Below are positions 587 through 30,869 of a stretch of DNA of 43,856 nt, piece after piece. The notes below the pieces were generated by a model. The model was not told the DNA's origin, made no database searches, and saw nothing but the letters and a program-made list of their open reading frames with translations. Where the stretch lies: IMG/VR virus record IMGVR_UViG_3300020477_000791, positions 1 to 43,856 of that record. One strand, written 5' to 3'. Position numbers and translations under genes: made by a program. Numbering within the stretch: the stretch's first letter is position 1; the number at the start of each line of letters is the position of its first letter. This DNA comes from a virus.

Positions 587-2967
587 TGAAAAATAATCTT
601 TATAATGGTATTAAGGAGCGTCTTTTTTATACATTAGGAAAACGTCCTGAAATTGCGACACCTCATGATTTTTATATGGCACTGAGTTATGCTGTAAGAG
701 ATCAGATGATGACTTATTGGTTGGATCTTCCTCGCCATCCGAAGAGAGAAGTAGCCTACCTTTCCGCCGAATTTTTAATTGGTCCACAACTTAATAATAA
801 TCTTATTGGTTTGGGTATAAGGGATGAGGCAGTTAAAGCATTGTCTGAATATGATTATTCATTAGAGCAAATATTAGATGTAGCAGAAGAACCTGGACTA
901 GGTAATGGTGGATTAGGTCGCCTTGCAGCGTGTTATATGGAGTCCTTAGCCAGTCTTAAAGTACCTGCTACTGGTTATGGTATAAGATATAAGTATGGAA
1001 TTTTTAAGCAGTTAATCAAAGATAATCAACAAATAGAAATCACTGATAATTGGTTACATGGAGAATGGCCATGGGAACTGTGTCAACCAGATGAGTCTGT
1101 CTTTGTAGGATTTGGTGGGAGAGTAGAAAATTATGTGTCAGATAGAGGTAATTATAGAGTAAGATGGGTTCCTGATGAACAAGTAGTGGCGGTTCCCTAT
1201 GATGTATTACAGTTGGGATATAGAGTTAATTCTTGTAATAGATTAAGATTATGGAGAGCAGATGCTACGGAAACATTTGATTTTTATGCCTTTAATATTG
1301 GTGATTACTTGGGATCAGTAGAGCAGAGTGTATCTTCCGAGACTATCTCTAAGGTATTGTATCCTAATGATGGTACAGACCAAGGTAAGATACTAAGATT
1401 AAAGCAGCAACACTTCTTTGTAAGTGCTTCTTTACAGGATATGCTTAATAGTTTGGATAGAATGGAGGTTCCCATAGAGCAATTCTCTGAACATTGGCAA
1501 GTACAATTAAATGATACTCATCCTTCTATCGCAGTAGCAGAGTTGATGAGACTTCTGGTTGATGAACGGCATATAGAATGGGATCAGGCATGGGAAATAA
1601 CACATCAATCTATTGCTTATACTAATCATACGCTTTTACCAGAAGCATTAGAGAAATGGGATCTTAAATTGTTTAAGACTCTTCTCCCTCGACACATGGA
1701 GATTATCTATGAGATTAATCGTCGGTTCTTACAGGTAGTAAGACTTCAATATCCCGGTGATGATTCTATGTTAGAGAAGATGTCTATCATTGATGAACAT
1801 GGTAATAAGTCGGTGCGTATGGCCCACCTTGCTACTGTGGGTTCTCATCATGTTAATGGAGTTGCAGCATTACATTCTGAATTAGTTAAGACTCAATTGA
1901 TGCCAGAATTCTATGATTTATGGCCACATAAGTTTACGAATGTAACTAATGGCGTTACTCCCAGAAGGTGGGTAGCATCCTGCAATCCAGCTCTTGCAGA
2001 AGTTCTTGATGAATATGTTGGAACAGAGTGGATTACTAATATGGATTCTCTTCACTTGTTAGAGAATAAATTTGATCCTTCTCTTGTAGATAAACTGGGT
2101 GAAGCAAAAGTACTTGGGAAGCATCATCTGGCTACCTATATCTTTGATAATTTGGGTATATCAGTAGATCCTTCTAGTATGTTTGATGTGCAGGTTAAAA
2201 GGATACATGAATATAAGAGACAACATCTTTTGGCTTTATGGATTGTTTATCAATATATTAGGATTAAGAATGGTGGAGATTACGTTCCACGTACTGTTAT
2301 TTTTGGAGGTAAAGCAGCACCTGGATATTATATGGCAAAGATGATAATACAATTTATTTGCCATATAGCAGAGGTGGTTAATAATGATCCTGATATGGAT
2401 GGTAAGTTAAGAGTAATTTTCTTACCAAATTATAGTGTGAAGTTAGGAGAGAAAGTATATCCTGCTGCTGATCTGTCAGAACAAATTTCTACTGCTGGTA
2501 AAGAAGCATCAGGTACAGGTAATATGAAGTTCCAGATGAATGGTGCTTTAACTATTGGAACTCTTGATGGTGCTAATGTAGAGATACGGGATTTGGTAGG
2601 AGAGGAAAACTTTTTCCTCTTTGGACATGATGAGAAAGGCATAGCAGAATTATGGCAGAAAGGATATGATCCAAAGAGTCATATGAGTTCTGAATTATGG
2701 GATGTAATAAACCTTATTAAGGGTGGACATTTTAGTCAAGGAGATAAAGAATACTTTAAACCTTTGGTAGATAATCTTATGAATCATGATCCTTTCTGTG
2801 TCTTTGCCGATTTTTCTGATTATCTTGATGCACAGGATAGAGTAAGTAGTGCATGGAGAGATCGGAAGATATGGAATAAGATGTCCTGCATTAACATCGC
2901 AAGATCAGGATTCTTCTCATCAGATCGTTCTATAAGAGAATATTGTAAAAATATATGGAAAATTTAA
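586..2967 (+). CDS. glgP: Glycogen/alpha-glucan phosphorylase (GT35)
   Basis: Full-length 793-residue alpha-glucan phosphorylase that releases glucose-1-phosphate from glycogen using PLP. Visible family signatures are PGLGNGGLGRLAACYMESLA near residue 105, LNDTHPSIAVAELMRLL in the middle, FTNVTNGVTPRRW, VQVKRIHEYKRQ, and the PLP site EASGTGNMKFQMN with Lys648 as the Schiff-base lysine, followed by TLDGANVEI. Bacterial GlgP is about 800-850 residues, so this is not truncated; the N-terminus is slightly short. Base composition resembles its phage neighbours. It lies between nrdB and a phosphomannomutase. Inferred role: mobilising host glycogen for the pentose phosphate pathway, nucleotide synthesis or sugar-nucleotide synthesis. 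The family is certain; the role during infection is inferred. Confidence 0.97.
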   Translation: MKNNLYNGIKERLFYTLGKRPEIATPHDFYMALSYAVRDQMMTYWLDLPRHPKREVAYLSAEFLIGPQLNNNLIGLGIRDEAVKALSEYDYSLEQILDVAEEPGLGNGGLGRLAACYMESLASLKVPATGYGIRYKYGIFKQLIKDNQQIEITDNWLHGEWPWELCQPDESVFVGFGGRVENYVSDRGNYRVRWVPDEQVVAVPYDVLQLGYRVNSCNRLRLWRADATETFDFYAFNIGDYLGSVEQSVSSETISKVLYPNDGTDQGKILRLKQQHFFVSASLQDMLNSLDRMEVPIEQFSEHWQVQLNDTHPSIAVAELMRLLVDERHIEWDQAWEITHQSIAYTNHTLLPEALEKWDLKLFKTLLPRHMEIIYEINRRFLQVVRLQYPGDDSMLEKMSIIDEHGNKSVRMAHLATVGSHHVNGVAALHSELVKTQLMPEFYDLWPHKFTNVTNGVTPRRWVASCNPALAEVLDEYVGTEWITNMDSLHLLENKFDPSLVDKLGEAKVLGKHHLATYIFDNLGISVDPSSMFDVQVKRIHEYKRQHLLALWIVYQYIRIKNGGDYVPRTVIFGGKAAPGYYMAKMIIQFICHIAEVVNNDPDMDGKLRVIFLPNYSVKLGEKVYPAADLSEQISTAGKEASGTGNMKFQMNGALTIGTLDGANVEIRDLVGEENFFLFGHDEKGIAELWQKGYDPKSHMSSELWDVINLIKGGHFSQGDKEYFKPLVDNLMNHDPFCVFADFSDYLDAQDRVSSAWRDRKIWNKMSCINIARSGFFSSDRSIREYCKNIWKI

Positions 2968-3671
2968 AATTTATTTTTGATATTGATGGGACATTAACTC
3001 CTAGTAGGAGAAAAATTGATCCTGATTTTCATGAGTACTTTCTTGATTTTGCTCATAAGAATGATGTTTATCTGGTTACAGGAAGTAATAGGGAGAAGAC
3101 CATAGAACAGATAGGTGAGGGTCTGTTTAATGCCTCTCAGAGGGTATATAATTGTGCTGGTAATGATGTTTATGAAGGGGAGAAGAATGTTTATAGAACG
3201 CCATGGGAACTTCCTGATGAGGCACGGAGATTCTTACAAGATGAATTAGATTATAGTGTATTTCCCATTAAGACGGGTACTCATATAGAAAAGAGACCAG
3301 GATGTGTGAATTTTAGTATTTTGGGAAGGGGTGCTACCTTTGAAGAAAGAGATGTATATAAGAAATGGGATAAAGAAAGGGAGGAAAGAGTAGATATTGC
3401 TGGAAGATTTAATGACAGATTCCCCGATTTATATGCTTTTGTAGGTGGTGAGACAGGTGTGGATATATCTCTTAAAGGGGCTGATAAGAGTCAGATATTA
3501 AGAGATTTTAAGGAAGGGGATAATATACGTTTCTTTGGTGATAGAATGGATGAAAATGGAAATGATTATCCATTAGCCATTGCTATTGCCGAAAACCATA
3601 TGGGATATGCATTTCAGGTAGATGGTTATAAAGACGTGTGGGAGATGTTAAAAAAGAAAACCCATGCATGA
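2955..3671 (+). CDS. Phosphomannomutase, eukaryotic (PMM/HAD) type
   Basis: A 238-residue HAD-superfamily protein resembling eukaryotic-type phosphomannomutases, which interconvert mannose-6-P and mannose-1-P, rather than the larger bacterial ManB. HAD motif I is FDIDGTLTP with Asp9 and Asp11; the cap-region motif is RPGCVNFSILGRGAT; the late motif is GETGVDISLKGADKSQ; motif IV is FFGDRMDENGNDYP with Asp196. It overlaps glgP by 13 bases and the next gene by 8, so it is part of a coupled run. Mannose-1-P is the precursor of GDP-mannose, the substrate of the Gmd and GDP-mannose 3,5-epimerase homologues encoded at 10799 and 13994. Confidence 0.85.
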   Translation: MENLKFIFDIDGTLTPSRRKIDPDFHEYFLDFAHKNDVYLVTGSNREKTIEQIGEGLFNASQRVYNCAGNDVYEGEKNVYRTPWELPDEARRFLQDELDYSVFPIKTGTHIEKRPGCVNFSILGRGATFEERDVYKKWDKEREERVDIAGRFNDRFPDLYAFVGGETGVDISLKGADKSQILRDFKEGDNIRFFGDRMDENGNDYPLAIAIAENHMGYAFQVDGYKDVWEMLKKKTHA

Positions 3672-5796: not shown

Positions 5797-6099
5797 TGGT
5801 GAATAGAGATTTACAGGATGAAAAGAGATGTTAGTAGTACGATGCAGGAGTTGTAACAAAGAATTATCCAGCCATGAAACGCAATCTAAATGCTGTGGCT
5901 GTCCCAATATGACAACCGTTAAAGGAGATTCTATATCAGCGGTTGACTTAGACCAAGTAATAATGTTACAATCAGATAGTAAACCATCTAAAAGACAATC
6001 ACTCTTTTCTCCACAAGAATTACAGTTTCAAGAAGAAAGACGTAAAAGAAAAGTTCGTAAATTAGATTTTGAGGTTAGATAAGTAAATCTCTATCCACT
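5795..6099. repeat. Imperfect inverted repeat flanking the zinc-ribbon gene
   Basis: The left arm at 5795-5814 reads AGTGG, then TGA, then ATAGAGATTTAC; the right arm at 6083-6099 is its reverse complement without the three extra bases (GTAAATCTCTATCCACT). The arms sit just outside the 5828-6082 gene, so 17 bases pair across it. The arms could form a long-range mRNA stem or mark a movable cassette; no transposase is present. Confidence 0.7.
5828..6082 (+). CDS. Zinc-ribbon-like cyanophage protein
   Basis: An 84-residue protein with an N-terminal four-cysteine zinc-binding pattern (CRSCNKEL then CCGCPNMT, cysteines within residues 6-25) and a basic C-terminal helix (EERRKRKVRK). I recognise the overall pattern as one of the small conserved T4-like cyanophage proteins; the function is unknown, though nucleic-acid binding is plausible. 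It lies between two arms of an inverted repeat. Confidence 0.75.
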   Translation: MLVVRCRSCNKELSSHETQSKCCGCPNMTTVKGDSISAVDLDQVIMLQSDSKPSKRQSLFSPQELQFQEERRKRKVRKLDFEVR

Positions 6100-6118
6100 G
6101 TCGAATTCAGTTTCAACT

Positions 6119-6325
6119 ATGGATAATTACAACACCGATGCTAAACTTTATGAAAATATGGTGAAGACAAAAAAGATTTATGAGGACACTGATAAGACCG
6201 ATGATGAGGTTTATATCAGAGCATGTGAATATTTGTCTACGCATCGAAACCCTGAGGATATATACAATAAGGCTAGAGAACCTATGAAAATTGACATTAA
6301 AGATCCGCCAAATGGATTATCCTAA
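6119..6325 (+). CDS. Small hypothetical protein
   Basis: A 68-residue hydrophilic protein rich in Asp, Lys and Tyr (for example KTKKIYEDTDKTDDEVYIRA), probably soluble and helical. No domain is recognised. Its 3' end overlaps the start of the following membrane-protein gene by 14 bases in another frame. The gap before it holds the right arm of the inverted repeat. Confidence 0.6.
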   Translation: MDNYNTDAKLYENMVKTKKIYEDTDKTDDEVYIRACEYLSTHRNPEDIYNKAREPMKIDIKDPPNGLS

Positions 6326-6623
6326 TCCACAACAGTATTATAATAAAGAAGAAGTTGACGCAATGATTGCTGCGGCTGTTGCGGAGGCTCATGAGGCGGA
6401 TAGGATATTGATGGCAAAGCATAATAAGACTGCTACTATCATTAGTATGATTTTGGGAGGTTTGTGTTTAGCCTTATTTGTAGATGGATTATTAAGATTG
6501 TTAGGTATCATCCCACCTTTTGCTGATATAGATATAAGTATAGTTGATAAGATTGTTGATAAGGTGGAAAGTGATGTAATACCATTAGTACAACAAGCAA
6601 AAGGATACATCCCAAGGATATGA
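6312..6623 (+). CDS. Single-pass membrane protein, unknown
   Basis: A 103-residue protein: an N-terminal helix ([20 protein letters not shown]), one transmembrane segment around residues 43-65 ([19 protein letters not shown]) and an amphipathic C-terminal helix ([17 protein letters not shown]). The ATG at 6312 is preferred to an in-frame TTG at 6291. The stop overlaps the NdhI start, so it is translationally coupled to ndhI. The N-terminal [12 protein letters not shown] resembles small cyanophage membrane proteins; function unknown. Confidence 0.65.
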
Positions 6624-7177
6624 ATAGAGTATTTAAATATCTTAAAGAGATAAAAGATACTGCTAAATATATGCTACAAGGGTTACAAGTGACCTTTGAT
6701 CATATGGGTAGACGACCTATAACGATCCAATATCCTTATGAGAAACTCATTCCTTCTGAACGTTACCGTGGTCGTATTCATTTCGAGCTTGATAAGTGCA
6801 TTGCTTGTGAAGTATGCGTTAGAGTATGTCCAATAAATCTCCCAGTGGTCGATTGGGTATTTAACAAAGAAGCAAAGAAAAAGGAATTAAGAAACTATTC
6901 GATAGACTTTGGGGTTTGCATATTCTGTGGGAACTGTGTAGAATATTGCCCAACCAATTGTTTATCCATGACGGAGGAATATGAACTGGCTGCATTTGAT
7001 CGGCACTCACTCAACTTTGATAATGTCGCTCTTGGACGACTGCCCACTAATGTTACAACTGATCCCTCAGTTAGGGCCATGCGTGAGTTGGCTTACTTAC
7101 CAAAAGGGAAGATGGATCCCCACGAAGTACCAGCAGATGATCCCAGAGTCGGTATAGATTGGTTGATAGAAAAATGA
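6620..7177 (+). CDS. ndhI: NAD(P)H dehydrogenase (NDH-1) subunit I, 2x[4Fe-4S]
   Basis: A 185-residue ferredoxin-like subunit of the cyanobacterial NDH-1 complex, which accepts electrons from ferredoxin in cyclic electron flow and respiration. Two complete cluster motifs are visible: [12 protein letters not shown] (about residues 60-71) and [12 protein letters not shown] (about 99-110). [20 protein letters not shown] and IHFELDKC are characteristic of cyanobacterial NdhI, and the length fits. It overlaps both neighbours by 4 bases (ATGA) and leads a run of tiny membrane-protein genes. ndhI is known from a few cyanophages; the inferred role is boosting cyclic electron flow and ATP during infection. 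Confidence 0.96.
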
Positions 7178-7347
7178 GAACACAGAGTAAGGAAAATTAT
7201 TATTATGTTTTCTGGACTCTGGCAATGATTGCTTTTATAGTCCCTCAGGTGTTTACTGCGTATGCTTATATGAATATTAAAAGTCTTCTTGAAAAACCTT
7301 TTAAGATAGAGATCGTACAACCTTCTAATTTAAAATTGAGGTTATAA
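7174..7347 (+). CDS. Small single-pass membrane protein downstream of ndhI
   Basis: A 57-residue protein with one hydrophobic segment ([20 protein letters not shown]) and a C-terminal soluble tail. The ATG at 7174 overlaps the ndhI stop (ATGA), so it is preferred to the upstream TTG at 7159. It could be an accessory subunit for the same complex, but I cannot match it to a named NDH-1 subunit. Confidence 0.6.
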
Positions 7348-7457
7348 TGATTGATACATCTTGGGGATCAATTAGAATTGCTATTGCTATGGTACTTGGT
7401 GTAGTGTGGTTTTATTTGTTAAATGAAGAATTGAGAAGTAGGGATAAAGATGACTAA
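7347..7457 (+). CDS. Tiny one-helix membrane protein
   Basis: 36 codons: a short N-terminus, a transmembrane stretch (IAIAMVLGVVWFYLL) and a charged end (NEELRSRDKDD). It is coupled to both neighbours through TAATG-type overlaps. The size and layout resemble the low-molecular-weight subunits of thylakoid complexes, but no specific family is recognised. Confidence 0.5.
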   Translation: MIDTSWGSIRIAIAMVLGVVWFYLLNEELRSRDKDD

Positions 7458-7804
7458 TGGATGATTTATCTGCCCTTTTATTTGTAGTTGTATCCATATC
7501 TCTTTTGGCAGGTGCAGTGTGGTTAATAGTTAGTGCTGCTAATTCTAGACCAGTGAGAGATTTTAATGCAGGTCGCTTGACAGGTGAATGGAGTACTGAG
7601 GTAATAAAACCTGTTCATCCTGAAATGAAGGATGTGGAGCCGGGTACTAAATTATTAGGTGTTAATTTTGAGCAGAAAACTGAATGTGATTTGGAAGAAT
7701 ATAGAGATTTACAAGCAAGAATAGAAGCACTTAGATTAGAGTTGGAAGGAGAGGATGAAGAAGATGATGATGATGGTGGAGATGTGGTAATATCTAGAAA
7801 ATGA
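7457..7804 (+). CDS. Single-pass membrane protein with long acidic tail
   Basis: 115 residues: an N-terminal membrane segment (LLFVVVSISLLAGAVWLIV), a conserved-looking block (FNAGRLTGEWSTE, KPVHPEMKDVEPG) and a coiled acidic C-terminus (GEDEEDDDDGGD). The PVHPEM motif loosely recalls small cyanobacterial thylakoid proteins, but I cannot assign a family. It is in the coupled ndhI run. Confidence 0.6.
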   Translation: MDDLSALLFVVVSISLLAGAVWLIVSAANSRPVRDFNAGRLTGEWSTEVIKPVHPEMKDVEPGTKLLGVNFEQKTECDLEEYRDLQARIEALRLELEGEDEEDDDDGGDVVISRK

Positions 7805-7935
7805 TCCTTGCAGACTTTCTTATAGTGATTTGCATACCTTTTGTAGTGACAACCCTTTACTTTGGGACAAAAGGAGGGTATTATAATACTGATAAATATC
7901 AGGGCGATGGTTGTGCTCACGACGTAAAACGATGA
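7801..7935 (+). CDS. Tiny one-helix membrane protein
   Basis: 44 codons with an N-terminal hydrophobic helix (FLIVICIPFVVTTLYF) and a polar tail (GTKGGYYNTDKYQGDG). ATGA overlaps on both sides indicate coupling. I believe it is a conserved cyanophage small membrane protein, function unknown. Confidence 0.55.
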   Translation: MILADFLIVICIPFVVTTLYFGTKGGYYNTDKYQGDGCAHDVKR

Positions 7936-8030
7936 TTAAACTAGTAGCGATTCCCGTACTGATGACAATAGGGGTAGTAATATCCGTACATCAACAACTG
8001 ATGTTCTTGTCACCATTTTTTATATGTTAA
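7932..8030 (+). CDS. Tiny hydrophobic peptide
   Basis: 32 codons, hydrophobic almost throughout (LVAIPVLMTIGVVISV), starting in an ATGA overlap with the previous gene. Only size, overlap and hydrophobicity support it. Confidence 0.4.
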   Translation: MIKLVAIPVLMTIGVVISVHQQLMFLSPFFIC

Positions 8031-8047
8031 TTTATAGGAGCTTGATT

Positions 8048-8350
8048 GTGAAAGAAACTGAAAACTATGACCAACTTTTAGCTCGCTTTACTAAAAGAAC
8101 CGAGCAATTAGAAGGTAAACAATTTCAACTTGCCGATTCTCATGAGGAATGGGTTAAGATTGATAAACAACTTCATTATCTTAGAGGATGTAAAGAAACT
8201 ATTGAGTATCTCATGACAGGTAAACTTCCTAACGATGGTAATCATGATGGTATGGCACATCATAAACCTGTTTCCGTTGATTATAATGAGATAGAAAGTA
8301 GGTTAAAAAGACCAGTTCGTCATGGTAACTTAGATGCACTTGATAGATGA
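8048..8350 (+). CDS. Small soluble coiled protein, unknown
   Basis: About 100 residues, charged and helical (LLARFTKRTEQLEGK, HEEWVKIDKQLHYLRGC). The GTG at 8048 is chosen because AGGAG at 8036-8040 lies 7 bases upstream; the ATG at 8024 has no ribosome site. It overlaps the next gene by 4 bases. No domain is recognised. Confidence 0.6.
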   Translation: MKETENYDQLLARFTKRTEQLEGKQFQLADSHEEWVKIDKQLHYLRGCKETIEYLMTGKLPNDGNHDGMAHHKPVSVDYNEIESRLKRPVRHGNLDALDR

Positions 8351-10798: not shown

Positions 10799-11872
10799 AT
10801 GAAAACTGCGTTAATAACGGGTGTGACCGGTCAAGATGGGTCATACCTTGCTGAATTTTTATTAGAAAAAGGATATCAAGTTCATGGTCTTAAAAGAAGG
10901 AGTTCTTCTTTTAATACTGATAGGGTAGATCATATTTTTGCTAAGAATAAAAACTTCTTTATGCACTATGGAGATCTGACTGACTCCTCAAATTTAGTTA
11001 ATATTATTAATACTATAAGACCGGATGAGATTTATAATATTGCAGCACAAAGTCACGTAAAAGTTTCATTTGAGACACCAGAATACACTGCTAATGGAGA
11101 TGCCGTGGGTGTTCTTCGTATTTTGGAAGCTATTAAAACTCTGGGATTGATTGGTAAGACTAAGTTTTATCAAGCTTCTTCATCAGAGATGTATGGATTA
11201 GTTCAGGAGAATCCACAGACAGAGAAGACTCCTTTCTATCCTCGTTCTCCTTATGGAGTAGCAAAACTTTATGGTCATTGGATCACCAAGAACTATCGTG
11301 AGTCCTATAATATTTTTGCTTGTTCAGGTATTCTTTTTAATCATGAGAGTCCTCGTAGAGGAGAGACCTTTGTAACTAGGAAGATTACTAGAATTATGGC
11401 AAGGATTCATCTTGGTATGATCAAGTGTTTATATCTTGGAAATCTGGATGCCAAACGGGATTGGGGACATGCTAAGGATTATGTAAGGGCAATGTGGATG
11501 ATGCTCCAACAAGATAATGCTGATGACTATGTAATTGCCACTGAGAAGCAAATTACTGTTAGGGAATTTGTAGAGAAGACTGGTAAGGTCTTGGGTATGA
11601 ATATCGTATGGGAAGGTTCTGGTTTAGAAGAGATTGGAATTGATACTAATACAGGTAATAAAGTAGTGGGAGTTAGTCCTAGGTACTTCCGTGATTCAGA
11701 AGTGGAGTCGTTGTTGGGTGATTCTACTAAGGCAAGGAAAGAATTGGGATGGAAGCCTGAGATTACAGTAGAGCAGATGATTGAAGAGATGGTGGAAAAG
11801 GATATTAAGATTGCTAAGAAAGAGCAATTATTAATTGATAATGGATATAGTAGTTACACCTATGAGGATTGA
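10799..11872 (+). CDS. gmd: GDP-mannose 4,6-dehydratase
   Basis: A 357-residue SDR enzyme making GDP-4-keto-6-deoxy-mannose from GDP-mannose. The N-terminal motif is [19 protein letters not shown] followed by [12 protein letters not shown]; the catalytic segment is SSSEMYG with [10 protein letters not shown] (Tyr152, Lys156); [18 protein letters not shown] is the diagnostic Gmd signature. The length fits. It opens the glycan island; the next gene overlaps by 11 bases. Its product is the branch point for fucose, colitose and other deoxysugars. Confidence 0.96.
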
Positions 11873-12791
11873 AGATAAGATCTATGTGGCAGGTCATAAT
11901 GGTCTTTTAGGATCTGCTGTTGTTCGGAGATTAGGAGAAGAAGGATATAGAAACCTTATTCTTAAAACAAGTAGTGAAGTAGATTTAAGAGATTCTTCTC
12001 AGGTTAAAGATTTTTTTGAAAAAGAAAGACCTGATTATGTTTTTTTATGTGCTGCTTCATGTGGAGGAGTTCAATCTAATATTCATAATCCTGTTGGATA
12101 TATACAGGACAATTTAGATATTCAAAGTAATGTTATTAAGAATGCTCATAATTATAAGGTAAAGAAACTTTTATTTGTAGGATCTGCTGCTACCTATCCC
12201 CAGGAATGCGATCAACCTATTAGGGAAGAATCATTATTTTCTAATTATTTGTCTCCTGCTAATGAATTTTATTGTATTGCAAAGATTGCAGGGATAAAAT
12301 TATGTCAAGCCTATAAGAAAGAGTGTGGAGATAATTTTATTTCTGTTCAACCTAATAACATTTATGGTCCTAGGGATAAATTTAGTGAGTCTAAGGGACA
12401 TGTAATGGCTGCTTTGATTACAAAGTTTCATAAAGCAAAGAAGACTCGGAGTTCTGAGGTAATTTGTTGGGGATCTGGAAATGCACGAAGAGAATTTATC
12501 TATGTTGAAGATCTGGCAGATGCATTATTATTTGTAATGAATAATTATAATGATAATGAACCTATTAATATTGGGGTAGGAGAGGATCATTCAATAAAAG
12601 AAGTGGCACAAATGATATCGGATGTGGTAGAATATGATGGTAAGATAGAATGGGATATTACCAAACCAGAAGGAGTATCAAAGAGATTATTAGACTCTTC
12701 AAAACTTTTTTCCATGGGATGGACCCCTACTTATGGGTTGTTGGAAGGTCTTACTTCCACTTATGATTATTACAAATTGGAGGTAAAGTAA
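11862..12791 (+). CDS. GDP-L-fucose synthase / GDP-L-colitose synthase homologue
   Basis: 309 residues from the ATG at 11862, where homologous sequence begins ([18 protein letters not shown]); the upstream ATG at 11835 only shadows Gmd. It is an SDR epimerase-reductase: NAD motif [20 protein letters not shown], and the YxxxK site YCIAK (Tyr137, Lys141). The family makes GDP-L-fucose from the Gmd product; ColC, a homologue in colitose pathways, acts on the 3-deoxy derivative. Because a ColD-type enzyme follows directly, either role (or both) is possible. Sequence alone does not decide. Confidence 0.88.
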
Positions 12792-13948
12792 TGTATTGGC
12801 CATTAATGGAAGAAACCATTACCTTGAAGGACCGTTTAAAGATGGCAGCCTTTATTTTGACTAGTAGTAGACTTACTAATGGTCCTAAGGTTCGTCAATT
12901 AGAAGAGAAATGGTCAGAGTGGTTGGGTGTTAAGCATTCGTTGTATGTGTCTAGTGGTAGTACTGCTAATACATTACTAGTTTCTTCTATAAAGGAGCAT
13001 TATGGGTTGAAAGATGGTGATAAAGTTCTTGTTCCTGCATGTACATGGGTCACTAATATCGCACCTGTTATTCAAGCAAATTTAGAACCTATTTTTTGTG
13101 ATATTAATCTTGATAATTATTCATTCGATGAAGAAGAATTAAAATATATTGCAGAACAGCATCCAGATATTAAAGCAGTTTTTATTACTCATCTTATTGG
13201 TCTTTCATCGGATGTAGAAAAGGTTAAAGAGATCTTTCCTAATGCTCTTATTATGGAAGATGTGTGTGAATCACATGGGGTAGAAGGACCTAATGGGAAG
13301 AGAGGTAGAGATTCTGTTGGGTCTACTTTTAGTTTCTATTTTGGGCATCATATAACCACTATTGAGGGTGGTATGGTGTGTACTAATAATAGTGATCTAT
13401 ATCAGTTGATGCGTATGAAGAGAAGTCATGGTATGGCTCGTGAAGCCTCTCCTGAATTATTTAAAAAGTATTCTGCTGAGAATCCAGATGTTGATCCCGC
13501 ATTTTTATTCATGACAGAAGGATTTAATCTTCGTAATCATGAGATATGTGCGGTTTTAGGTCTCTCCCAGATGAAGAAATTGGATAAAAATATTGCTATT
13601 CGTAGAGATAACTTTGCTCATTGGTGGGTGAAGGCTAAAGCATCTTTACATCAATATTACTGTCCTCAATTCCAAAAAGGAAATAGTAGTTTCTCCTTTC
13701 CTATCATTCCTCATGATGGAAGTTTAACTCCTATTCTTAAAGGTAAATTAAAGGAGGAGGGAATTGAATATCGTCCTATCATTAGTGGCAATCTTCTTCG
13801 CCACCCTGCATTTAATAAGTATAAGTTGTGTACAGAGAGGGAAAATCCTAATGTATGCACTCTTCATCGTAACGGATTGTATGTTGGTAACAGTCAGTTT
13901 GTTAATAAGAAGAAAGTGGATAGACTTATTGAAGTTATGGGTGTATAA
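12791..13948 (+). CDS. colD: ColD-type PLP sugar 3-dehydratase (His in place of Lys)
   Basis: 385 residues, fold type I, DegT/DnrJ/EryC1 family. SSGSTANTLL, EDVCESHGVEG, and FSFYFGHHITTIEGGM are visible. In sugar aminotransferases the last motif has the PLP lysine; here His186-His187 replaces it, as in GDP-4-keto-6-deoxymannose 3-dehydratase (ColD) and the RfbH/E1 group. GIEYRPIISGNLLRHP and NGLYVGNSQF match the ColD C-terminus, and ColD is about 388 residues. It shares a base with the preceding gene. Inferred substrate: the Gmd product, giving a 3,6-dideoxysugar nucleotide. Confidence 0.85.
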   Translation: MYWPLMEETITLKDRLKMAAFILTSSRLTNGPKVRQLEEKWSEWLGVKHSLYVSSGSTANTLLVSSIKEHYGLKDGDKVLVPACTWVTNIAPVIQANLEPIFCDINLDNYSFDEEELKYIAEQHPDIKAVFITHLIGLSSDVEKVKEIFPNALIMEDVCESHGVEGPNGKRGRDSVGSTFSFYFGHHITTIEGGMVCTNNSDLYQLMRMKRSHGMAREASPELFKKYSAENPDVDPAFLFMTEGFNLRNHEICAVLGLSQMKKLDKNIAIRRDNFAHWWVKAKASLHQYYCPQFQKGNSSFSFPIIPHDGSLTPILKGKLKEEGIEYRPIISGNLLRHPAFNKYKLCTERENPNVCTLHRNGLYVGNSQFVNKKKVDRLIEVMGV

Positions 13949-13956
13949 TATAAATA
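13949..13956 (+). promoter_or_regulatory. T4-type late promoter TATAAATA
   Basis: An exact TATAAATA just after the ColD stop, 37 bases before the ATG at 13994; a TATAAT (13944-13949) overlaps it. It could restart transcription inside the island. Confidence 0.55.
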
Positions 13957-13993
13957 TCAAGGCTTATTAAATTTTTCTGAGGTTAAATTAAAG

Positions 13994-15091
13994 ATGGTAG
14001 AAAGACAAAAGACTGCTCTTGTATGTGGTGCTGGTGGATTCATCGGCAGTCATATGGTTAGGAGATTAAAGAAGGATGGATATTGGGTGCGGGGTGTGGA
14101 TGTTAAGAGTCCTGAATATTCGGAGACAGCAGCAGATGAGTTTATTCTGGGTAATCTAACTGATCCTACACTTGTTGATCGAGTAGTTAGATTTGCTGGA
14201 TATCAAGGAAACTTTTATCATTCTGTTCCAGAACAATATACAGAACCCTTTGATGAGATCTATCAGTTCGCTGCGGATATGGGTGGTGCTGGATTTGTCT
14301 TTTCTGGTGAAAATGATGCAGAGATTATGCATAACTCTGCTTGTGTGAATCTTAATATTCTTGAATCATTAAAGAAGTTGCAAGAAAGATATGGGGATGG
14401 ATGGAATCAGATTCCAGTTGATAGGCAACGTCATACTAAGATATTTTATTCTAGTTCTGCTTGCATGTATCCTGAGTATGCTCAGATGGAGGTAGAGAAT
14501 CCAGGATTAAAAGAATCTGATGCATATCCTGCTGGTCCTGATAGTGAATATGGTTGGGAGAAATTATTTTCTGAGAGAATCTATCTTGCCTATCATCGTA
14601 ACCATGGAATTCCTATTCGTATTGCAAGGTATCATAATATATTTGGTCCTGATGGAACATGGAAAGGTGGTAGAGAAAAATCTCCTGCTGCAATGTGCCG
14701 TAAGGTAGCGGAACTTCCTGCTAGTGGTGGAGAGGTAGAGATTTGGGGTGATGGTGAGCAGACTCGTTCATTCTTATACATTGATGAGTGTATTGAAGCA
14801 ACTCGTCGTTTAATGGATAGTGATTTTATGGGACCAGTTAATATTGGTTCAGAGGAAATGGTTACTATTAATGAACTTGCTGATACTGCTGCAAGAGTAG
14901 CGGGTAAACCCATCACTAAGGTACATGTAGATGGTCCTTTGGGGGTTCGTGGACGTAATTCTAATAATGATCTAGTTCGAGAGAAATTAGAATGGGATTA
15001 TTCACAGACCTTGGAAGAAGGTATTCGTAAGACCTATGAATGGATCAATGCTCAGGTAAGTGCAGATAATGTAATGCATCATCCTGTTTGA
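13994..15091 (+). CDS. GDP-mannose 3,5-epimerase-like SDR
   Basis: 365 residues. N-terminal CGAGGFIGSHMVRRLKKDGY, then QFAADMGGAGFVFS, SSSACMYPEYAQ, the YxxxK-type site in DSEYGWEKLF, NIFGPDGTWKGGREKSPAA, EIWGDGEQTRSFLYIDEC and VNIGSEEMVTINELA. These closely match plant and bacterial GDP-mannose 3,5-epimerase (GME), which makes GDP-L-galactose and GDP-L-gulose. The length (about 370) fits. It is the fourth GDP-mannose-using or linked enzyme in a row. A late-promoter motif precedes it. Confidence 0.85.
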   Translation: MVERQKTALVCGAGGFIGSHMVRRLKKDGYWVRGVDVKSPEYSETAADEFILGNLTDPTLVDRVVRFAGYQGNFYHSVPEQYTEPFDEIYQFAADMGGAGFVFSGENDAEIMHNSACVNLNILESLKKLQERYGDGWNQIPVDRQRHTKIFYSSSACMYPEYAQMEVENPGLKESDAYPAGPDSEYGWEKLFSERIYLAYHRNHGIPIRIARYHNIFGPDGTWKGGREKSPAAMCRKVAELPASGGEVEIWGDGEQTRSFLYIDECIEATRRLMDSDFMGPVNIGSEEMVTINELADTAARVAGKPITKVHVDGPLGVRGRNSNNDLVREKLEWDYSQTLEEGIRKTYEWINAQVSADNVMHHPV

Positions 15092-20779: not shown

Positions 20780-21504
20780 TGCCTATACCAACTGATATAA
20801 GTCTGGTTACTTTTTCGGATATTAAAGGAAATGAAATAGATCTTTCATCTTCTGAGATTTATAAGAGTCATGCATATGCAGAACATGCTTGCGTACATGC
20901 TATTCTTACACAGTTTCATAATGATTTTTATTATTATTTAAAGGACCAAGAAGAATTAAATCTTATAGATTTAGGTGCTAATATTGGATTATTTTCCATT
21001 TATGTTTCACCTGTCTGTGAAAAAGTATTTGCAGTAGAACCTACTCCTTCTCATTTTAAAGTAATGGAGGAGATTATAGGGGTCTCTGGTAAGAATAATA
21101 TTATCCCTCATCAAGTAGCAATAGGACTTCAAGATGGGGAGGCAGAGTTTAAACTTCATGGAAGGAATTCTACCATGAATTCATTTGTTAATTGTAGAGT
21201 AGATCCGCATGTGGGAGAGAATATAAAAGTTAAGACTCAAACTCTTAATAGTTTTATTGATTCATTGGATGTAGATCGTGTAGGATTCGTGAAGATGGAT
21301 ATTGAAGGATTTGAAACAGAAGTTATTTCAGAACCTTCTTTTGAAGATGCTATGAAAAAGATTGATGCTTTGTATGTAGAGGTTCATGATTTTGAGGTAA
21401 GTGCTGGTGGAGTAGAAAGAAATTTTAATACTATTTCTGATAAGATGAGGGGATGGGGAAGGACAGTAGACAAACTTCAAGATGATTGTATGTTGGTTTA
21501 TTGA
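20779..21504 (+). CDS. FkbM-family methyltransferase
   Basis: 241 residues: LNLIDLGANIGLFSIYV (SAM motif I), FAVEPTPSHFKVMEEI, TLNSFIDSL and VGFVKMDIEGFETEVI, the full FkbM pattern. It is a second member of the family in the island, next to a GT-A transferase. The last base is shared with the transketolase ATG. Confidence 0.88.
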   Translation: MPIPTDISLVTFSDIKGNEIDLSSSEIYKSHAYAEHACVHAILTQFHNDFYYYLKDQEELNLIDLGANIGLFSIYVSPVCEKVFAVEPTPSHFKVMEEIIGVSGKNNIIPHQVAIGLQDGEAEFKLHGRNSTMNSFVNCRVDPHVGENIKVKTQTLNSFIDSLDVDRVGFVKMDIEGFETEVISEPSFEDAMKKIDALYVEVHDFEVSAGGVERNFNTISDKMRGWGRTVDKLQDDCMLVY

Positions 21505-22121
21505 TGAAAGAACTTTATAAGCGATTATTAGATATTTGTTATCAAAGACAACTTCATCATTTGGGGAGTTATTTCTCGGCATTACAAATAATAGATGAGA
21601 TTTATTCTCAGAAGAATGAAGATGATATCTTTATTCTTTCTAATGGTCATGCAGTAGTTGCTCTTTATGTGGTGCTTGAAAAGTATTATGGTTTAGATGC
21701 AGTAGAATTGCATGAGAAATATGGGGATCATCCGAAGAGAAATGAATTAGATAAACTCCATTGTTCCACAGGGAGTTTGGGTATGGGGGTTACGGTTGCT
21801 GTTGGTAGAGCACTGGCGAATCCTGATCGAGATGTGTATTGTTTATTATCTGATGGTGAATGTGCAGAAGGTTCAGTATGGGAAGCACTTAGATTTGCTT
21901 ATGAGAATAAAGTAACTAATTTAAAACTCTATGTAAATGCAAATGGATGGGCTGCATATGATGCGGTTGATTTAGATTACTTAGAGAAGAGAATTAAAGC
22001 ATTCCATCCGGATGTAAATTATGTTCGTACTACCGTTGAACATTTTGGATTGAAAGGACTTCATGCTCACTATACTAATTTTAATGAAGAGCAGTATAAG
22101 GAGGCACTCGCATCATTATGA
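21504..22121 (+). CDS. Transketolase-like N-terminal subunit (split)
   Basis: 205 residues from the ATG at 21504. It carries the thiamine-diphosphate module: SNGHAVVALYVVLEKYYGL, then HCSTGSLGMGVTVAVGRALA and LLSDGECAEGSVWEALRFA, the DGE motif for ThDP and metal. With the next gene it forms a split transketolase pair of the type found in surface-sugar clusters. It is shorter than usual (about 270 residues), lacking part of the C-terminal end of this domain. Confidence 0.8.
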   Translation: MKELYKRLLDICYQRQLHHLGSYFSALQIIDEIYSQKNEDDIFILSNGHAVVALYVVLEKYYGLDAVELHEKYGDHPKRNELDKLHCSTGSLGMGVTVAVGRALANPDRDVYCLLSDGECAEGSVWEALRFAYENKVTNLKLYVNANGWAAYDAVDLDYLEKRIKAFHPDVNYVRTTVEHFGLKGLHAHYTNFNEEQYKEALASL

Positions 22122-22594
22122 ACCAGCGACAAAGATTTAAGGAACTTTTTACCGAAGAAATGAAACAGAATGAGGATATTATTCTGTTGGTGGGAGATGT
22201 TGGATATAAAGTTTTTGATCATTTAAGAGAAGAGTTTCCTAGTCGAGTAATTAATCCGGGAGCATCAGAGCAATTGATGATGGGTATGGCAGCAGGTCTT
22301 GCGATGGATGGGAAGATACCTGTATGTTATTCTATTACTCCTTTTGTTTTATATCGACCTTTTGAATTTATAAGAAACTATTTAAATCATGAGAGTATTC
22401 CTGTGAAACTTGTAGGGAGTGGCCGTAATGAAGACTATGGTGTTTGTGGGTTCTCTCATTATGCATGTGAAGATTTGGAAGTGATGAAAATATTTTCTAA
22501 CATTGAAGTACATCATCCCCAATCTCCTGATGATATTGATATTAAGAAGTTTCTTTATTCTTCTACTCCTTCTTATATTAATTTACAAAGATGA
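22118..22594 (+). CDS. Transketolase-like pyrimidine-domain subunit, short
   Basis: 158 residues: ILLVGDVGYKVFDHLREEFP, RVINPGASEQLMMGMAAGLA (with the conserved Glu that activates ThDP), PVCYSITPFVLYRPFEFIRN. This is the pyrimidine-binding domain of the split transketolase; the normal C-terminal third domain is absent. The pair could make an unusual ketose for the glycan, or serve carbon metabolism with transaldolase. Confidence 0.8.
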   Translation: MNQRQRFKELFTEEMKQNEDIILLVGDVGYKVFDHLREEFPSRVINPGASEQLMMGMAAGLAMDGKIPVCYSITPFVLYRPFEFIRNYLNHESIPVKLVGSGRNEDYGVCGFSHYACEDLEVMKIFSNIEVHHPQSPDDIDIKKFLYSSTPSYINLQR

Positions 22595-23403
22595 ATATTC
22601 TTTTCACCGGTCAGCGGGGATTTTTAGGAAGAGAATTAATTCCTTATCTTGAAAAGAAGGGGCATGATGTAACTTCTTCAAATGTTGATTATAGTGATCA
22701 GAGAAATGTAGATCAATTTTTTCGTCATAGGGAGTTTGATTTCATTATTCATGCTGCTATTCGGGGTGGTCGGAGAATACGTAAAGATAGTGTTGATGAT
22801 TTTCATAATAATGTAAGGATGTTTGAGGTTCTTGCCTCTCAAAGGGTTCCATTAATTACTTTTTGTAGTGGAGCAGTATATGGTAGACAAGAAGACATTT
22901 ATGGTCTTTCAGAGACTGAGGTGGGGATGAGAATTCCTACGGATTATTATGGATTTGCTAAGTATATAATTGCTCAACGTGCTCGTCAATTGAGTAATGT
23001 TTATGTTCTTCGATTCTTTAATGTATTTGGACCTACTAGTCAGGAGGATATGTTTACATCAGCGAATATTAGAAATTATATTAATAAGAAAGATATAGTT
23101 ATTTTTAAAGATAAGTATATGGATTTCTTTGGTATTAGTGATACTAAAAAAGTTTTAGATCTTTATCTTGAAAAGGCAAAGGAACTTCCTAAGGATATTA
23201 ATCTAGTCTATAAGACCACTCAGACCCTCTCTGATGTGGGAAAAATGATTAATAATCTATCAGACCATACAGTGGAAATAGATATTCGTGAGAGAGGGAT
23301 GGAGAAGTCTTATTGTGGATCTGGAAATCTTCTCAGTACGTTGGGTCTTAAATTAAATGGATTGGAGTATGAACTTAATTCTACATATGAATATTTGCGT
23401 TAA
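22591..23403 (+). CDS. NAD-dependent epimerase/dehydratase
   Basis: 270 residues: ILFTGQRGFLGRELIPYLEK is the Rossmann motif; FIIHAAIRGGRR; the YxxxK site is in DYYGFAKYII; VLRFFNVFGP. It is an SDR with an unassigned nucleotide-sugar substrate. It lies between the transketolase pair and a nucleotidyltransferase, so it may finish or reduce the sugar they build. Confidence 0.8.
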   Translation: MNILFTGQRGFLGRELIPYLEKKGHDVTSSNVDYSDQRNVDQFFRHREFDFIIHAAIRGGRRIRKDSVDDFHNNVRMFEVLASQRVPLITFCSGAVYGRQEDIYGLSETEVGMRIPTDYYGFAKYIIAQRARQLSNVYVLRFFNVFGPTSQEDMFTSANIRNYINKKDIVIFKDKYMDFFGISDTKKVLDLYLEKAKELPKDINLVYKTTQTLSDVGKMINNLSDHTVEIDIRERGMEKSYCGSGNLLSTLGLKLNGLEYELNSTYEYLR

Positions 23404-23414
23404 TGGAAGTAGTG

Positions 23415-23819
23415 ATGTATAAAAAAGTCTTTGTGAATGGAACCTTTGATCTTCTTCATAGGGGTCATTTAGAACTTCTTAATTATGCACGGAGTCAAGG
23501 AGGACATGTATGTGTGGGAATTGATACGGATGAGAGGGTAAGAGAGAAGAAGGGACCTACAAGACCTATACATAACCAGGAGGAACGAAAGTTTTTTCTT
23601 GAAAGTCTAAAAGCAGTAGATGAAGTTAGGTTCTTTTCTAATGATAAAGAGTTAGAGGGGTTGGTAAAATCCTATCAACCTGATATAATGATTGTGGGAT
23701 CTGATTGGAAAGGTAAATCCGTTATCGGATCTTATTGGGCTGCTAAGTTGATATTCTTTGATAGAATAGGTGAGTATGCAACAACAAAAACAATTCAAGA
23801 TATTATTAATCGGCGATAG
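23415..23819 (+). CDS. HldE/RfaE C-domain-like nucleotidyltransferase
   Basis: 134 residues from the ATG at 23415 (GGAAG 5 bases upstream; another ATG at 23403). VFVNGTFDLLHRGHLELL holds the HxGH nucleotidyl-transfer motif (His15, His18); DTDERVREKKGPTRP, PDIMIVGSDWKGKS. It resembles the ADP/GDP-heptose nucleotidyltransferase domain and glycerol-3-P cytidylyltransferases. It overlaps the next gene by 44 bases; the kinase domain follows rather than precedes. Confidence 0.8.
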   Translation: MYKKVFVNGTFDLLHRGHLELLNYARSQGGHVCVGIDTDERVREKKGPTRPIHNQEERKFFLESLKAVDEVRFFSNDKELEGLVKSYQPDIMIVGSDWKGKSVIGSYWAAKLIFFDRIGEYATTKTIQDIINRR

Positions 23820-24558
23820 TTGTACTGATGAATATGTCTATGGAACCTGTGAGAGGTTGAATCCAGAGGCACCAGTTCCTATTTTAAAATTTAATAGAAA
23901 AGAAACTACAAGAGGAATGGCATGGAACGTAAGAGAGAATCTTATGTCATTTGGATTAGATGTTTATATACTTACCAATAAAGAACCTATTATAAAGACA
24001 AGATATATTGATGAGAAATCTAATCAACATATTTTAAGAGTAGATGATGAGGGAAAGTGTGAACCCCTCCCTTATCAACAACCATTTCTTGAGCGATCAA
24101 ATACTGATCCACCATCCGATGATTGGTATGATGCCCTTGTTATTTCAGATTATGACAAGGGTTTTTTAACGACTAAGAAGATACAAGAATTGGTTGATTG
24201 GTTTGAAGGTCCCGTCTTTATTGATAGTAAAAAAACTAAACTCCCTAAGGATGGTTGTTTTCTTAAAATTAATGAGTTAGAATCTAAGTTACTGAAAGGG
24301 AGGTATAAGAATTTAATTATTACTAAGGGTGCTGGTGGTGCTGATTATGATGGAGTAAACTATCCAGGAGAAAAGACTAAGATTGTAGATGTAGTAGGAG
24401 CAGGTGATACATTTCTTTCTGCATTGGTTTACTTTCATCTTTTCTATGGTAGAATAGAGGAAGCAATTCCTTATGCTAATAAAGCAGCAGCAATTGCTGT
24501 GCAAAATTTTGGAACTTATGTTTTAACGGAGGAAGATGTCAAAGACTTACGTGGTTGA
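23776..24558 (+). CDS. PfkB-family sugar kinase, HldE N-domain-like
   Basis: 260 residues from the ATG at 23776. KILLIGDSCTDEYVYGTCER then LNPEAPVPILK matches heptose-7-phosphate kinase (HldE/RfaE N-domain); IKTRYIDEKSNQHILRVD; VVGAGDTF carries the catalytic base Asp211. With the preceding nucleotidyltransferase it gives a split HldE-like pair. It is short for the family, with a reduced middle. No GmhA is visible in the window. Confidence 0.8.
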   Translation: MQQQKQFKILLIGDSCTDEYVYGTCERLNPEAPVPILKFNRKETTRGMAWNVRENLMSFGLDVYILTNKEPIIKTRYIDEKSNQHILRVDDEGKCEPLPYQQPFLERSNTDPPSDDWYDALVISDYDKGFLTTKKIQELVDWFEGPVFIDSKKTKLPKDGCFLKINELESKLLKGRYKNLIITKGAGGADYDGVNYPGEKTKIVDVVGAGDTFLSALVYFHLFYGRIEEAIPYANKAAAIAVQNFGTYVLTEEDVKDLRG

Positions 24559-25203: not shown

Positions 25204-26043
25204 ATGAGTGAACGAATTAAATTTAATCTAGTTGATAGTACGTTCAGTCATCTAGATGGTGGAAGACTTCCTATTCCTAATAAGGGATACTCTGTGCATG
25301 GAAAAGAATCTACATGTATTGAATGGGTTACTGATGGTAGTGGAGTTGGTAAGTTTTATACTGATAAAAGGATTCCAGAAGCATTTAGTGATGACTCTGG
25401 TGAGTTAAAGTTTGCATGGTTTCTAGAATCAAAAGCAATTGTCCCTGAATTATATCAGCATCTTACTGATAATATGGATGCATACTTAGAGAAGTTTGAT
25501 TCTATATTTGTTTTTGATAAAAGTTTATTGTCTATCAGTCCTAAGTTTAAATGGGTTCCTGCTCAGGGATATTGGATTCAGAAGGCACAGATGTATGATA
25601 AGACTAAGATGATCTCTATGATTGCATCTAATAAGTTGATGTGTCCTGGTCATCAGGTAAGGTTAGATTATATTGAGAAGTTTGATGGACAAGTAGATCA
25701 TTTTGGTAATGGATATACTTGGATTGATTGGAAGGAAGAAGGTCTATGTGATTATATGTTCTCTATTGCTATGGAGAATTGTGAGGTTCCAGGATACTTT
25801 ACTGAGAAAGTATTAGATTGCTTTGCTACTGGAACTATTCCTATCTATCTCGGCGATCCTACTATTGGGGAACACTTTAATATGGATGGAGTTATCTGGT
25901 TATCAGATGAATTTGACGTTTCGGATGAAATTTATTATAGTAAGATTGATGCAGTAAAGGATAATTTGGAACGAGTTAAAGAGATGGAAGTTCTTGAAGA
26001 TTATATTTGGAAGCATCACCTTAATAAACAATTTGGAAAATGA
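25204..26043 (+). CDS. GT10 alpha-1,3-fucosyltransferase-like
   Basis: 279 residues. CDYMFSIAMENCEVPGYFTE then KVLDCFATGTIPIYLGDP matches the GDP-fucose-binding motif of GT10 alpha-1,3/4-fucosyltransferases (FxxAFENS-x-PGYITEK, AGTIPIYWGDP). The N-terminal part is more divergent. The donor is expected to be GDP-fucose or a close relative made by the Gmd/Fcl pair at 10799-12791. The protein is soluble with no signal peptide. Confidence 0.8.
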   Translation: MSERIKFNLVDSTFSHLDGGRLPIPNKGYSVHGKESTCIEWVTDGSGVGKFYTDKRIPEAFSDDSGELKFAWFLESKAIVPELYQHLTDNMDAYLEKFDSIFVFDKSLLSISPKFKWVPAQGYWIQKAQMYDKTKMISMIASNKLMCPGHQVRLDYIEKFDGQVDHFGNGYTWIDWKEEGLCDYMFSIAMENCEVPGYFTEKVLDCFATGTIPIYLGDPTIGEHFNMDGVIWLSDEFDVSDEIYYSKIDAVKDNLERVKEMEVLEDYIWKHHLNKQFGK

Positions 26044-28915: not shown

Positions 28916-29956
28916 ATGGTAAAGGTAAGAGAATTTATTAAAGAACTACAAATTTATAATGTAGGTGGACGTTCTGAATTATCATCTGATTGGGAGTGTT
29001 TTGATTGGAATGAATCAGAATTTCCTCCTACTAATAAGGTATTTGAAGTTGTTCAAACTTTTTATAGGTATGAAAGATACCCTGATATTACAGCAAAGAA
29101 GTTAAAGCATAGACTGGGAGAGTATACTAATCTTCCACCCAATTTTATTGAGGTATATAATGGATCTGACGATGGTTTAAAGGATATAATGACTGTCTTT
29201 GTTGATAGAAACACTAAGGTTCTTTCTTATCAACCCTCATACACTCAGGTTAATACTTTTATTACTACTAATACAGATCAATATAAGAAGGTTAATATTG
29301 TAGATCCATTAGGAGAACATAGATATGATTTTAATCATTGTAGGGATGCTGATGTAGTCTATCTGGTTAATCCTAATAACCCTACGGGAAAACTCATACC
29401 ACCGAATGAGATTGAAGGTTTACTTTCTTCTTATCCAGAGACTCTTTTTATTATTGATGAAGCCTACTATGAGTTTGCTTTACAATCTTGTTGCGAGATG
29501 GTTTATTCATATAAGAATTTACTCGTTACCAGAACCTTCTCTAAGGCGTTTGGATTGGCATCAATGAGACTGGGATATGTTATGGGTCATCCAGACTTAT
29601 TAATACATCTTAGGAAGATTAGGAATGGTAAAGCAGTGAATGCATTAGCACAAGCATGTGGGATTGCAGCACTAAGTGATTTGGATTATCTTAACTGGCG
29701 CATAGCAGAAATGAATGATGCTAAGAAGTTTTTTATAAGAAATCTTCCTAGTGGATATGATGCTGTGAAGAGTTCTGCTAATTTTGTATTGTTAAAGACA
29801 CCCAACTCAGCAGAATTGTTGAATAAATTAAAGGAAAATAAGATTCTTATACGAGATAGAAGTTCCTTTGAAAATCTTGAAAATTGTGTTAGAATAACTA
29901 TTGGATCTAAGAAACAGATCATCAAAGTACTGGATGTAATTAATGATAGGGTATAA
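28916..29956 (+). CDS. Class I/II aminotransferase, HisC-like
   Basis: 346 residues: YLVNPNNPTGKLI, IIDEAYYEF, and TRTFSKAFGLASMRLGY with PLP Lys210. This is the histidinol-phosphate aminotransferase subgroup, often used in clusters for modified sugars or amino-acid side chains. Within the island a role in glycan decoration is more likely than histidine synthesis. Confidence 0.85.
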   Translation: MVKVREFIKELQIYNVGGRSELSSDWECFDWNESEFPPTNKVFEVVQTFYRYERYPDITAKKLKHRLGEYTNLPPNFIEVYNGSDDGLKDIMTVFVDRNTKVLSYQPSYTQVNTFITTNTDQYKKVNIVDPLGEHRYDFNHCRDADVVYLVNPNNPTGKLIPPNEIEGLLSSYPETLFIIDEAYYEFALQSCCEMVYSYKNLLVTRTFSKAFGLASMRLGYVMGHPDLLIHLRKIRNGKAVNALAQACGIAALSDLDYLNWRIAEMNDAKKFFIRNLPSGYDAVKSSANFVLLKTPNSAELLNKLKENKILIRDRSSFENLENCVRITIGSKKQIIKVLDVINDRV

Positions 29957-30869
29957 CAGATTAGGGATTAATGGCAGACTTGCTAACCAGATGTTTCAAT
30001 ATGCCTCTCTAAGGGGTATAGCAGCAAAGCATGGGTATGAATGGACTATTCCTCCTGAGGATAGAGAAACTCATAACATGGCTGACTATAATATTATGGA
30101 TGGGTTTAAGTTACCTCATCTAAAAAATAAAGGATTTGTTCCTGAGGATTGGCCAGTACATGATGAACCCTGTCATGACTTTGATCCAGAGTTTTTTGAG
30201 AATTGTCCTGATAATATAAACTTAGAAGGATTTAGACAGTCAGAGAAATACTTTAAGCATATTGAGAATGAGATAAGAGAAGATTATACTTTTATTGATG
30301 ACATTTATAATCCATGTAAGGAAATGATTGATGGTCTAGGGGACAGACCATTGTTTCTACATGTAAGAAGAGCAGATGCAACGGGTAGACCGCATCAGTA
30401 TCCCGTAGCATCTATTGAATGGTATGAGAAGATGTTAGAAGAATATTTTCCTAAGGATTTATCAGTTCTTATTCTTACTGATAAGTTGGATTGGGTACAG
30501 GAACAAGAATTGTTTAAGGGAGATAGGTTCCTTCTATCAGAACAAAGAGAATACTCAGAGACATTGGTATGGAATGGTAGAGGAAAGAAAGAACATAGTT
30601 TGTTACCATGGGTTGACCTTTGTTTGATGACTCTTTGTAATGGTGGTATAATTCCTAACAGTACCTTTGGTTGGTGGGGTGCTTGGTTACAAAAGAATAG
30701 AACTAATAATGTAGTCTATCAACATCCATACTTTGGTCCAGAGTTTACTGCCAAGCATGATTGTTTCAGAGATTTGAATGATATGTATCCAGAAGATTGG
30801 ATTCGTGGTCACCTCCCTGATGAGATGATAGATACAAAATATACAGCATCGGAGAATGAAGTTGACTAA
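29943..30869 (+). CDS. GT11 alpha-1,2-fucosyltransferase-like (copy 1)
   Basis: 308 residues: INGRLANQMFQYASLRGIA is the GT11 start, PLFLHVRRADATGR holds the HxRRxD donor-binding motif, and NSTFGWWGAWLQ is the C-terminal family motif. GDP-fucose-like donors are expected. A second, related copy lies at 32543. It overlaps both neighbours by 14 bases. Confidence 0.88.
   Translation: MIGYNRLGINGRLANQMFQYASLRGIAAKHGYEWTIPPEDRETHNMADYNIMDGFKLPHLKNKGFVPEDWPVHDEPCHDFDPEFFENCPDNINLEGFRQSEKYFKHIENEIREDYTFIDDIYNPCKEMIDGLGDRPLFLHVRRADATGRPHQYPVASIEWYEKMLEEYFPKDLSVLILTDKLDWVQEQELFKGDRFLLSEQREYSETLVWNGRGKKEHSLLPWVDLCLMTLCNGGIIPNSTFGWWGAWLQKNRTNNVVYQHPYFGPEFTAKHDCFRDLNDMYPEDWIRGHLPDEMIDTKYTASENEVD

Follow-up and report, generated by a model that had tools for sequence, protein, structure and literature searches.

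The open reading frame at positions 13994-15091 of the window (the whole stretch of 43,856 bases analysed here, positions 1 to 43,856 of IMG/VR virus record IMGVR_UViG_3300020477_000791) near certainly encodes a GDP-mannose 3,5-epimerase (GME), to judge by its sequence and modelled fold. Our preferred reading, to which we give a probability of about 0.8, is that this genuine GME makes the sugar donor for glycosyltransferases of families GT11 and GT10 in the surrounding glycan cluster, the use of its product by these enzymes being what we infer from gene content. The source is a virus of marine cyanobacteria: the window carries genes typical of T4-like cyanophages (an nrdB fragment, a TalC-like transaldolase, a high-light-inducible-type protein) and its homologues lie mainly in Kyanoviridae, and a search for nucleotide-level relatives among sequenced phages returned two short matches only. 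The glycan cluster extends from 10.8 to 34.2 kb on the plus strand and is nearly gap-free. The features discussed below are the following.

2955-3671, plus strand: HAD-type phosphomannomutase-like protein (PF03332, 75.2 bits; PDB phosphomannomutase, E=1.5e-25)
10799-11872, plus strand: Gmd (TIGR01472, 570.8 bits, above the equivalog cut-off of 415)
11862-12791, plus strand: Fcl/GDP-fucose-synthase-like SDR, 309 aa (best PDB matches GDP-fucose synthase, GFS)
12791-13948, plus strand: ColD-like, putative PMP-dependent GDP-4-keto-6-deoxymannose 3-dehydratase, 385 aa (PDB ColD 2gms, E=5.7e-55)
13921-13956, plus strand: putative sigma70-type promoter of GME, TAGACT (13921-13926), 17 bp, TATAAT (13944-13949)
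13994-15091, plus strand: GME, ATG to TGA, 365 aa, no internal stops
25204-26043, plus strand: GT10-family glycosyltransferase, candidate GDP-L-sugar user (PF00852, 32.2 bits)
29943-30869, plus strand: GT11-family glycosyltransferase (PF01531, 56.6 bits)
32543-33367, plus strand: GT11-family glycosyltransferase (PF01531, 103.5 bits)

The GME frame is intact, its start codon agrees with the starts of its homologues, and a possible ribosome-binding site, GAGG, lies at 13979-13982. The original prediction of a GME is borne out by sequence, residues, tree and fold alike. The best phmmer match in the PDB is Arabidopsis GME 2c59 (E=1.6e-84), the first five matches are plant GME sequences (E from 1.6e-84 to 3e-81) and the next SDR class, the UDP-sugar epimerases, follows at E=1.5e-21. 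Eight residues separate GM35E from GFS and GalE (PMC8787198), and all eight are kept in the window protein and invariant across the 84 phage and 80 bacterial homologues aligned: in Arabidopsis numbering, the acid/base pair Cys145/Lys217 (here C157/K229), Ser143 with the YxxxK residues Tyr174 and Lys178 (S155, Y186, K190), the Cys-acidifying Arg306 (R321), the diphosphate-contacting Arg243 (R258) and Asn203 (N215). The phylogeny with plant and bacterial GMEs that had been proposed as a check placed the window protein on the GME side, where plant, bacterial and phage GMEs fall together (SH-aLRT 100, GFS as outgroup). Phage GMEs form one group (support 99 in a tree built by a quick method, with a single support value, many open forks and Arabidopsis on a long branch), which also holds a SAR11 GME and a sequence from a MAG labelled Bifidobacterium that is possibly mis-binned. 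The AlphaFold2 model (pLDDT 80.7, pTM 0.83) retrieves plant GME as all of its top 14 Foldseek chains (E down to 1e-34), with the next class at 6e-23. That the gene encodes another extended SDR instead, a UDP-glucose 4-epimerase or a GDP-fucose synthase, is very improbable. Most database records are annotated as UDP-glucose 4-epimerase, the Rossmann fold is common to these SDRs and the PHROG family is no more precise than "nucleotide-sugar epimerase"; however, the additional Cys/Lys pair is missing from GalE (PMC8787198), the base is His in GFS and Lys229 here, GFS forms a separate branch in the tree, and about 60 orders of magnitude divide the best from the next family in the PDB search.

With respect to Arabidopsis GME (2c54/2c59/2c5a/2c5e), the phage protein has identical catalytic and diagnostic residues and, by prediction, a similar fold, and differs by two loop insertions (34 versus 16 and 30 versus 14 residues). 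The first loop has 34 residues in 83 of the 84 phage GMEs, against 16 in Arabidopsis and 16-22 in bacteria, and the model places it between helix 58-64 and strand 88-92; the sole exception, S-SCSM1, lacks the 17-residue insertion. Methylacidiphilum GM35E (PMC6678494), a further close known system, presumably has these residues and this fold too. The nearest published comparison is the GME of cyanophage S-SCSM1 (ORF123; Wang et al. 2022, PMC9602691), which is 61% identical and comes from a similar cyanomyovirus setting. As in the window, it adjoins Gmd and a GDP-fucose synthase gene and belongs to a glycan cluster with GT11; unlike in the window, no ColD lies between Fcl and GME. The wcaG RNA annotated near GME in S-SCSM1 and S-SCSM2R had no Rfam match in the window, where Rfam gave only a tRNA and one sub-threshold chance match.

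The view that GME is known mainly from plants and some bacteria is outdated, since homologues at 56-63% occur in many bacterial phyla and a scan of viral contigs gave at least 600 relatives. Among annotated phage records, 37 carry a GME at 61-75% identity, nearly all of them Synechococcus or Prochlorococcus phages or marine single-cell viruses, and the usual label is "UDP-glucose 4-epimerase" or "nucleotide-sugar epimerase"; S-SCSM1 is the only one labelled GDP-mannose-3',5'-epimerase. Because its GME has already been reported and discussed (Wang 2022, PMC9602691) and many phage records carry the gene, cyanophage GME is a known kind of gene, and its presence in the virus of the window is not unusual. 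Being common and under wrong names, phage GME has probably led to viral L-galactose biosynthesis being missed in marine virus surveys. No cyanobacterial GME appeared among the best 80 cellular loci. The SAR11 sequence inside the phage group (Pelagibacteraceae AG-893-M03) is, at 63% identity, among the closest cellular ones and lacks the 17-residue loop insert of phage GMEs; SAR11 as a common GME donor was rejected, GME being present in only two of 53 genomes of its family. In that SAR11 genome, GME and Gmd-like genes adjoin (6001-8072 of locus L089). In phage S-B43 (MN018232.1), GME is split into two pieces (55814-56212 and 90624-91262), which lie on opposite strands with 34 kb between them and a tail-fibre-like gene beside one end; this is an inversion or an assembly artefact.

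Gmd, the Fcl-like gene and the ColD-like gene do lie head to tail upstream of GME, as had been claimed. The idea of four consecutive GDP-mannose-related enzymes thus holds for the row of genes, and is only partly right for four working enzymes because the Fcl-like protein lacks its catalytic Cys. In the alignment it retains S107, Y136, K140 and H179 and has Ala in place of Cys109 (GSAATYP), so that of the Cys109 acid and His179 base of GDP-L-fucose synthase it keeps the His and not the Cys. It scores 384.6 bits against NF047922 (cut-off 500), a model under whose cut-off seven full-length Fcl proteins of other phages also fall (422-473 bits). Cys109 is present in all other aligned phage Fcl proteins, including those adjoining ColD and that of S-SCSM1, except in one 100% identical contig (L009/L193), the only close relative of this variant that the scan gave, which may come from the same virus population as the window. 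Since a review names the Cys as the catalytic acid of the enzyme class (PMC8787198), normal GDP-fucose synthesis is doubtful here, and the originally predicted repertoire of several L- and deoxy-sugar donors is reduced accordingly: GDP-L-galactose is plausible, and GDP-fucose or colitose is weakened by the Ala at position 109. The Fcl-like protein also has Ser for the Lys of the AAAK motif, and a Sphingomonadales homologue likewise has Ala at position 109. In the ColD-like protein, for which ColD is the nearest match, a His replaces the Schiff-base Lys (GHHITTIEGG versus SHHIATMEGG).

The orders Gmd-Fcl-ColD-GME or Gmd-ColD-GME recur in L010-L016, L036 and L046, some of these loci having one extra gene between ColD and GME, and the window GME belongs with them and L022 to an 11-row clade (support 95). 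Synechococcus phages ACG-2014f and S-CAM7 have Gmd, Fcl and ColD homologues ordered as in the window; unlike in the window, their cassettes have no GME and GT11 follows directly after ColD. In L010 (11814-14803), an RfbH-like 3-dehydratase gene adjoins one for an acetolactate-synthase-like TPP enzyme, a pair that presumably resembles genes for branched-sugar (yersiniose-type) synthesis.

The link between GME and the glycosyltransferases comes from their co-occurrence. We searched 28 cyanophage genomes whole, a chosen and not a random sample (13 picked for GME, seven from GT11/Gmd match lists and eight well-known isolates off those lists), and found GT11 in 13 of 13 GME-positive genomes and Gmd above the cut-off in one of them. 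The six GME-negative, GT11-positive genomes included five with Gmd and full-length Fcl, and one, B23, with neither pathway; S-SKS1 has Gmd, Fcl and GT10, and the eight well-known isolates have no GME, Gmd, Fcl, GT10 or GT11. GME and GT11 genes adjoin in S-PRM1, Bellamy and the S-CAM9 group. Of 51 GME loci on metagenomic contigs that continue for 7 kb or more downstream, 30 have GT10 or GT11, 20 of these 30 without nearby Gmd, Fcl or ColD, and 21 have neither glycosyltransferase within the available stretch. GDP-L-colitose, GDP-L-fucose and GDP-L-galactose all serve as donors for the bacterial colitosyltransferase WbgN and for human FUT2, which both refuse donors of other stereochemistry (PMC11987014), and in Arabidopsis mur1 a shortage of GDP-fucose leads to L-fucose being replaced by L-galactose (PMC4844278). 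Most simply, GME and Gmd/Fcl would be two alternative sources of GDP-L-galacto-type donors for one set of enzymes; against this, GDP-fucose may be supplied by the hosts of these phages.

By homology to characterised enzymes, GME with bound NAD+ would oxidise C4 of GDP-D-mannose, the Cys157/Lys229 acid-base pair would epimerise C5 and C3, and C4 would be reduced again, to give GDP-L-galactose as the main product and GDP-L-gulose and GDP-D-altrose as by-products. GT11 and GT10 would then transfer L-galactose, during infection, to a glycan on either the infected cell or the virus particle, and the proposed link thus predicts L-galactose on virions or on infected Synechococcus or Prochlorococcus cells. 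Gmd, ColD and the Fcl-like protein may make related 6-deoxy or 3,6-dideoxy donors, with the Fcl-like step altered or dead in this virus. As a lead only, the phosphomannomutase-like gene could support the supply of GDP-mannose; phosphomannomutase is also present in GME-positive S-SSM7 and P-TIM68. This gene shares 13 bp with a glycogen phosphorylase gene (586-2967; PF00343, 1030 bits), of which the only close relative among annotated cyanophage records is in S-SCSM2R (72%). A broader proposal, which we hold as possible and less probable than even, is that cyanophages swap GME and Gmd/Fcl donor modules before the same GT11/GT10, so that the "fucosyltransferases" of GME-bearing phages would act as L-galactosyltransferases; in the lineage of the window, GME would have removed the need for the Fcl step, and the Fcl without Cys109 would remain as a reductase-only or single-epimerase variant that makes a different deoxy sugar.

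Among other uses of GME, the least improbable is that its product goes to other glycosyltransferases of the cluster, or that the product used is GDP-L-gulose or GDP-D-altrose. The enzyme makes three products (PMC8787198), many cluster proteins lack an assignment and the 21 contigs without GT10/GT11 in the flank fit such a use, which we nevertheless consider unlikely given the presence of GT11 in every GME-positive genome examined whole and the adjoining gene pairs. Members of the window's GME clade mostly have ColD close upstream, and L010-L013 are Gmd-ColD-GME loci with no Fcl, as might be expected if GME took the place of a missing or damaged Fcl/ColC to complete a colitose-type sugar; characterised GMEs, however, give back their own hydride and perform no net reductase chemistry, and ColD is absent beside most phage GMEs, which makes this role decidedly improbable. 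Plant GME serves ascorbate and the cell wall. A plant-like function in L-galactose or ascorbate metabolism can draw on that role in ascorbate synthesis, and it is the most improbable of all the readings in a context of glycosyltransferases and sugar-modifying enzymes, where a Pfam scan of the cluster proteins gave no match to GDP-L-galactose phosphorylase or the HIT family. Supplying GT11 and GT10 with GDP-L-galactose is the use of GME that we prefer.

GME probably has its own promoter, of sigma70 type. This agrees with the original prediction in that a promoter-like element of its own precedes the gene, and departs from it on the "late" class. The string ATAAATA (13950-13956) directly follows TATAAT, in the only gap of more than 15 bp in the cluster, and of its nine plus-strand matches in the window, six lie no more than 80 nt before a start (positions that make up 10% of the sequence, counted from a hand-drawn gene list). 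A T4-type late promoter would be expected to show a conserved TATAAATA-like element upstream; the string is present in the window and was rejected as a conserved element, because ATAAATA precedes GME in only two of 80 relatives, against 20 of 764 controls. An element like TATAATATATA, with at most two mismatches, lies within 80 nt upstream of GME in 60 of 80 phage loci versus 40 of 808 control starts, an enrichment that is large and partly circular, since the pattern was picked by eye from the upstream regions of some of these very loci. In the relatives, TATAATATATA is found near -30, and TTGACA/TTGCAA-like boxes stand some 17 nt before it; the window copy has one mismatch and lies at -50. 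Because TATAATATATA is conserved and ATAAATA is not, the sigma70-type promoter is preferred, which leans towards early or middle expression of GME.

Three further loci of the window deserve mention. A 4Fe-4S dicluster protein with Fer4 domains (6620-7177) is NdhI-like by reading of its sequence. A transketolase-like protein (21486-22594) is encoded as two adjoining frames, a pair kept in other GME loci (e.g., L011, L034 and L080). HldE-like heptose-phosphate adenylyltransferase and kinase domains (23403-24558) are encoded by two separate genes, which suggests a heptose donor.
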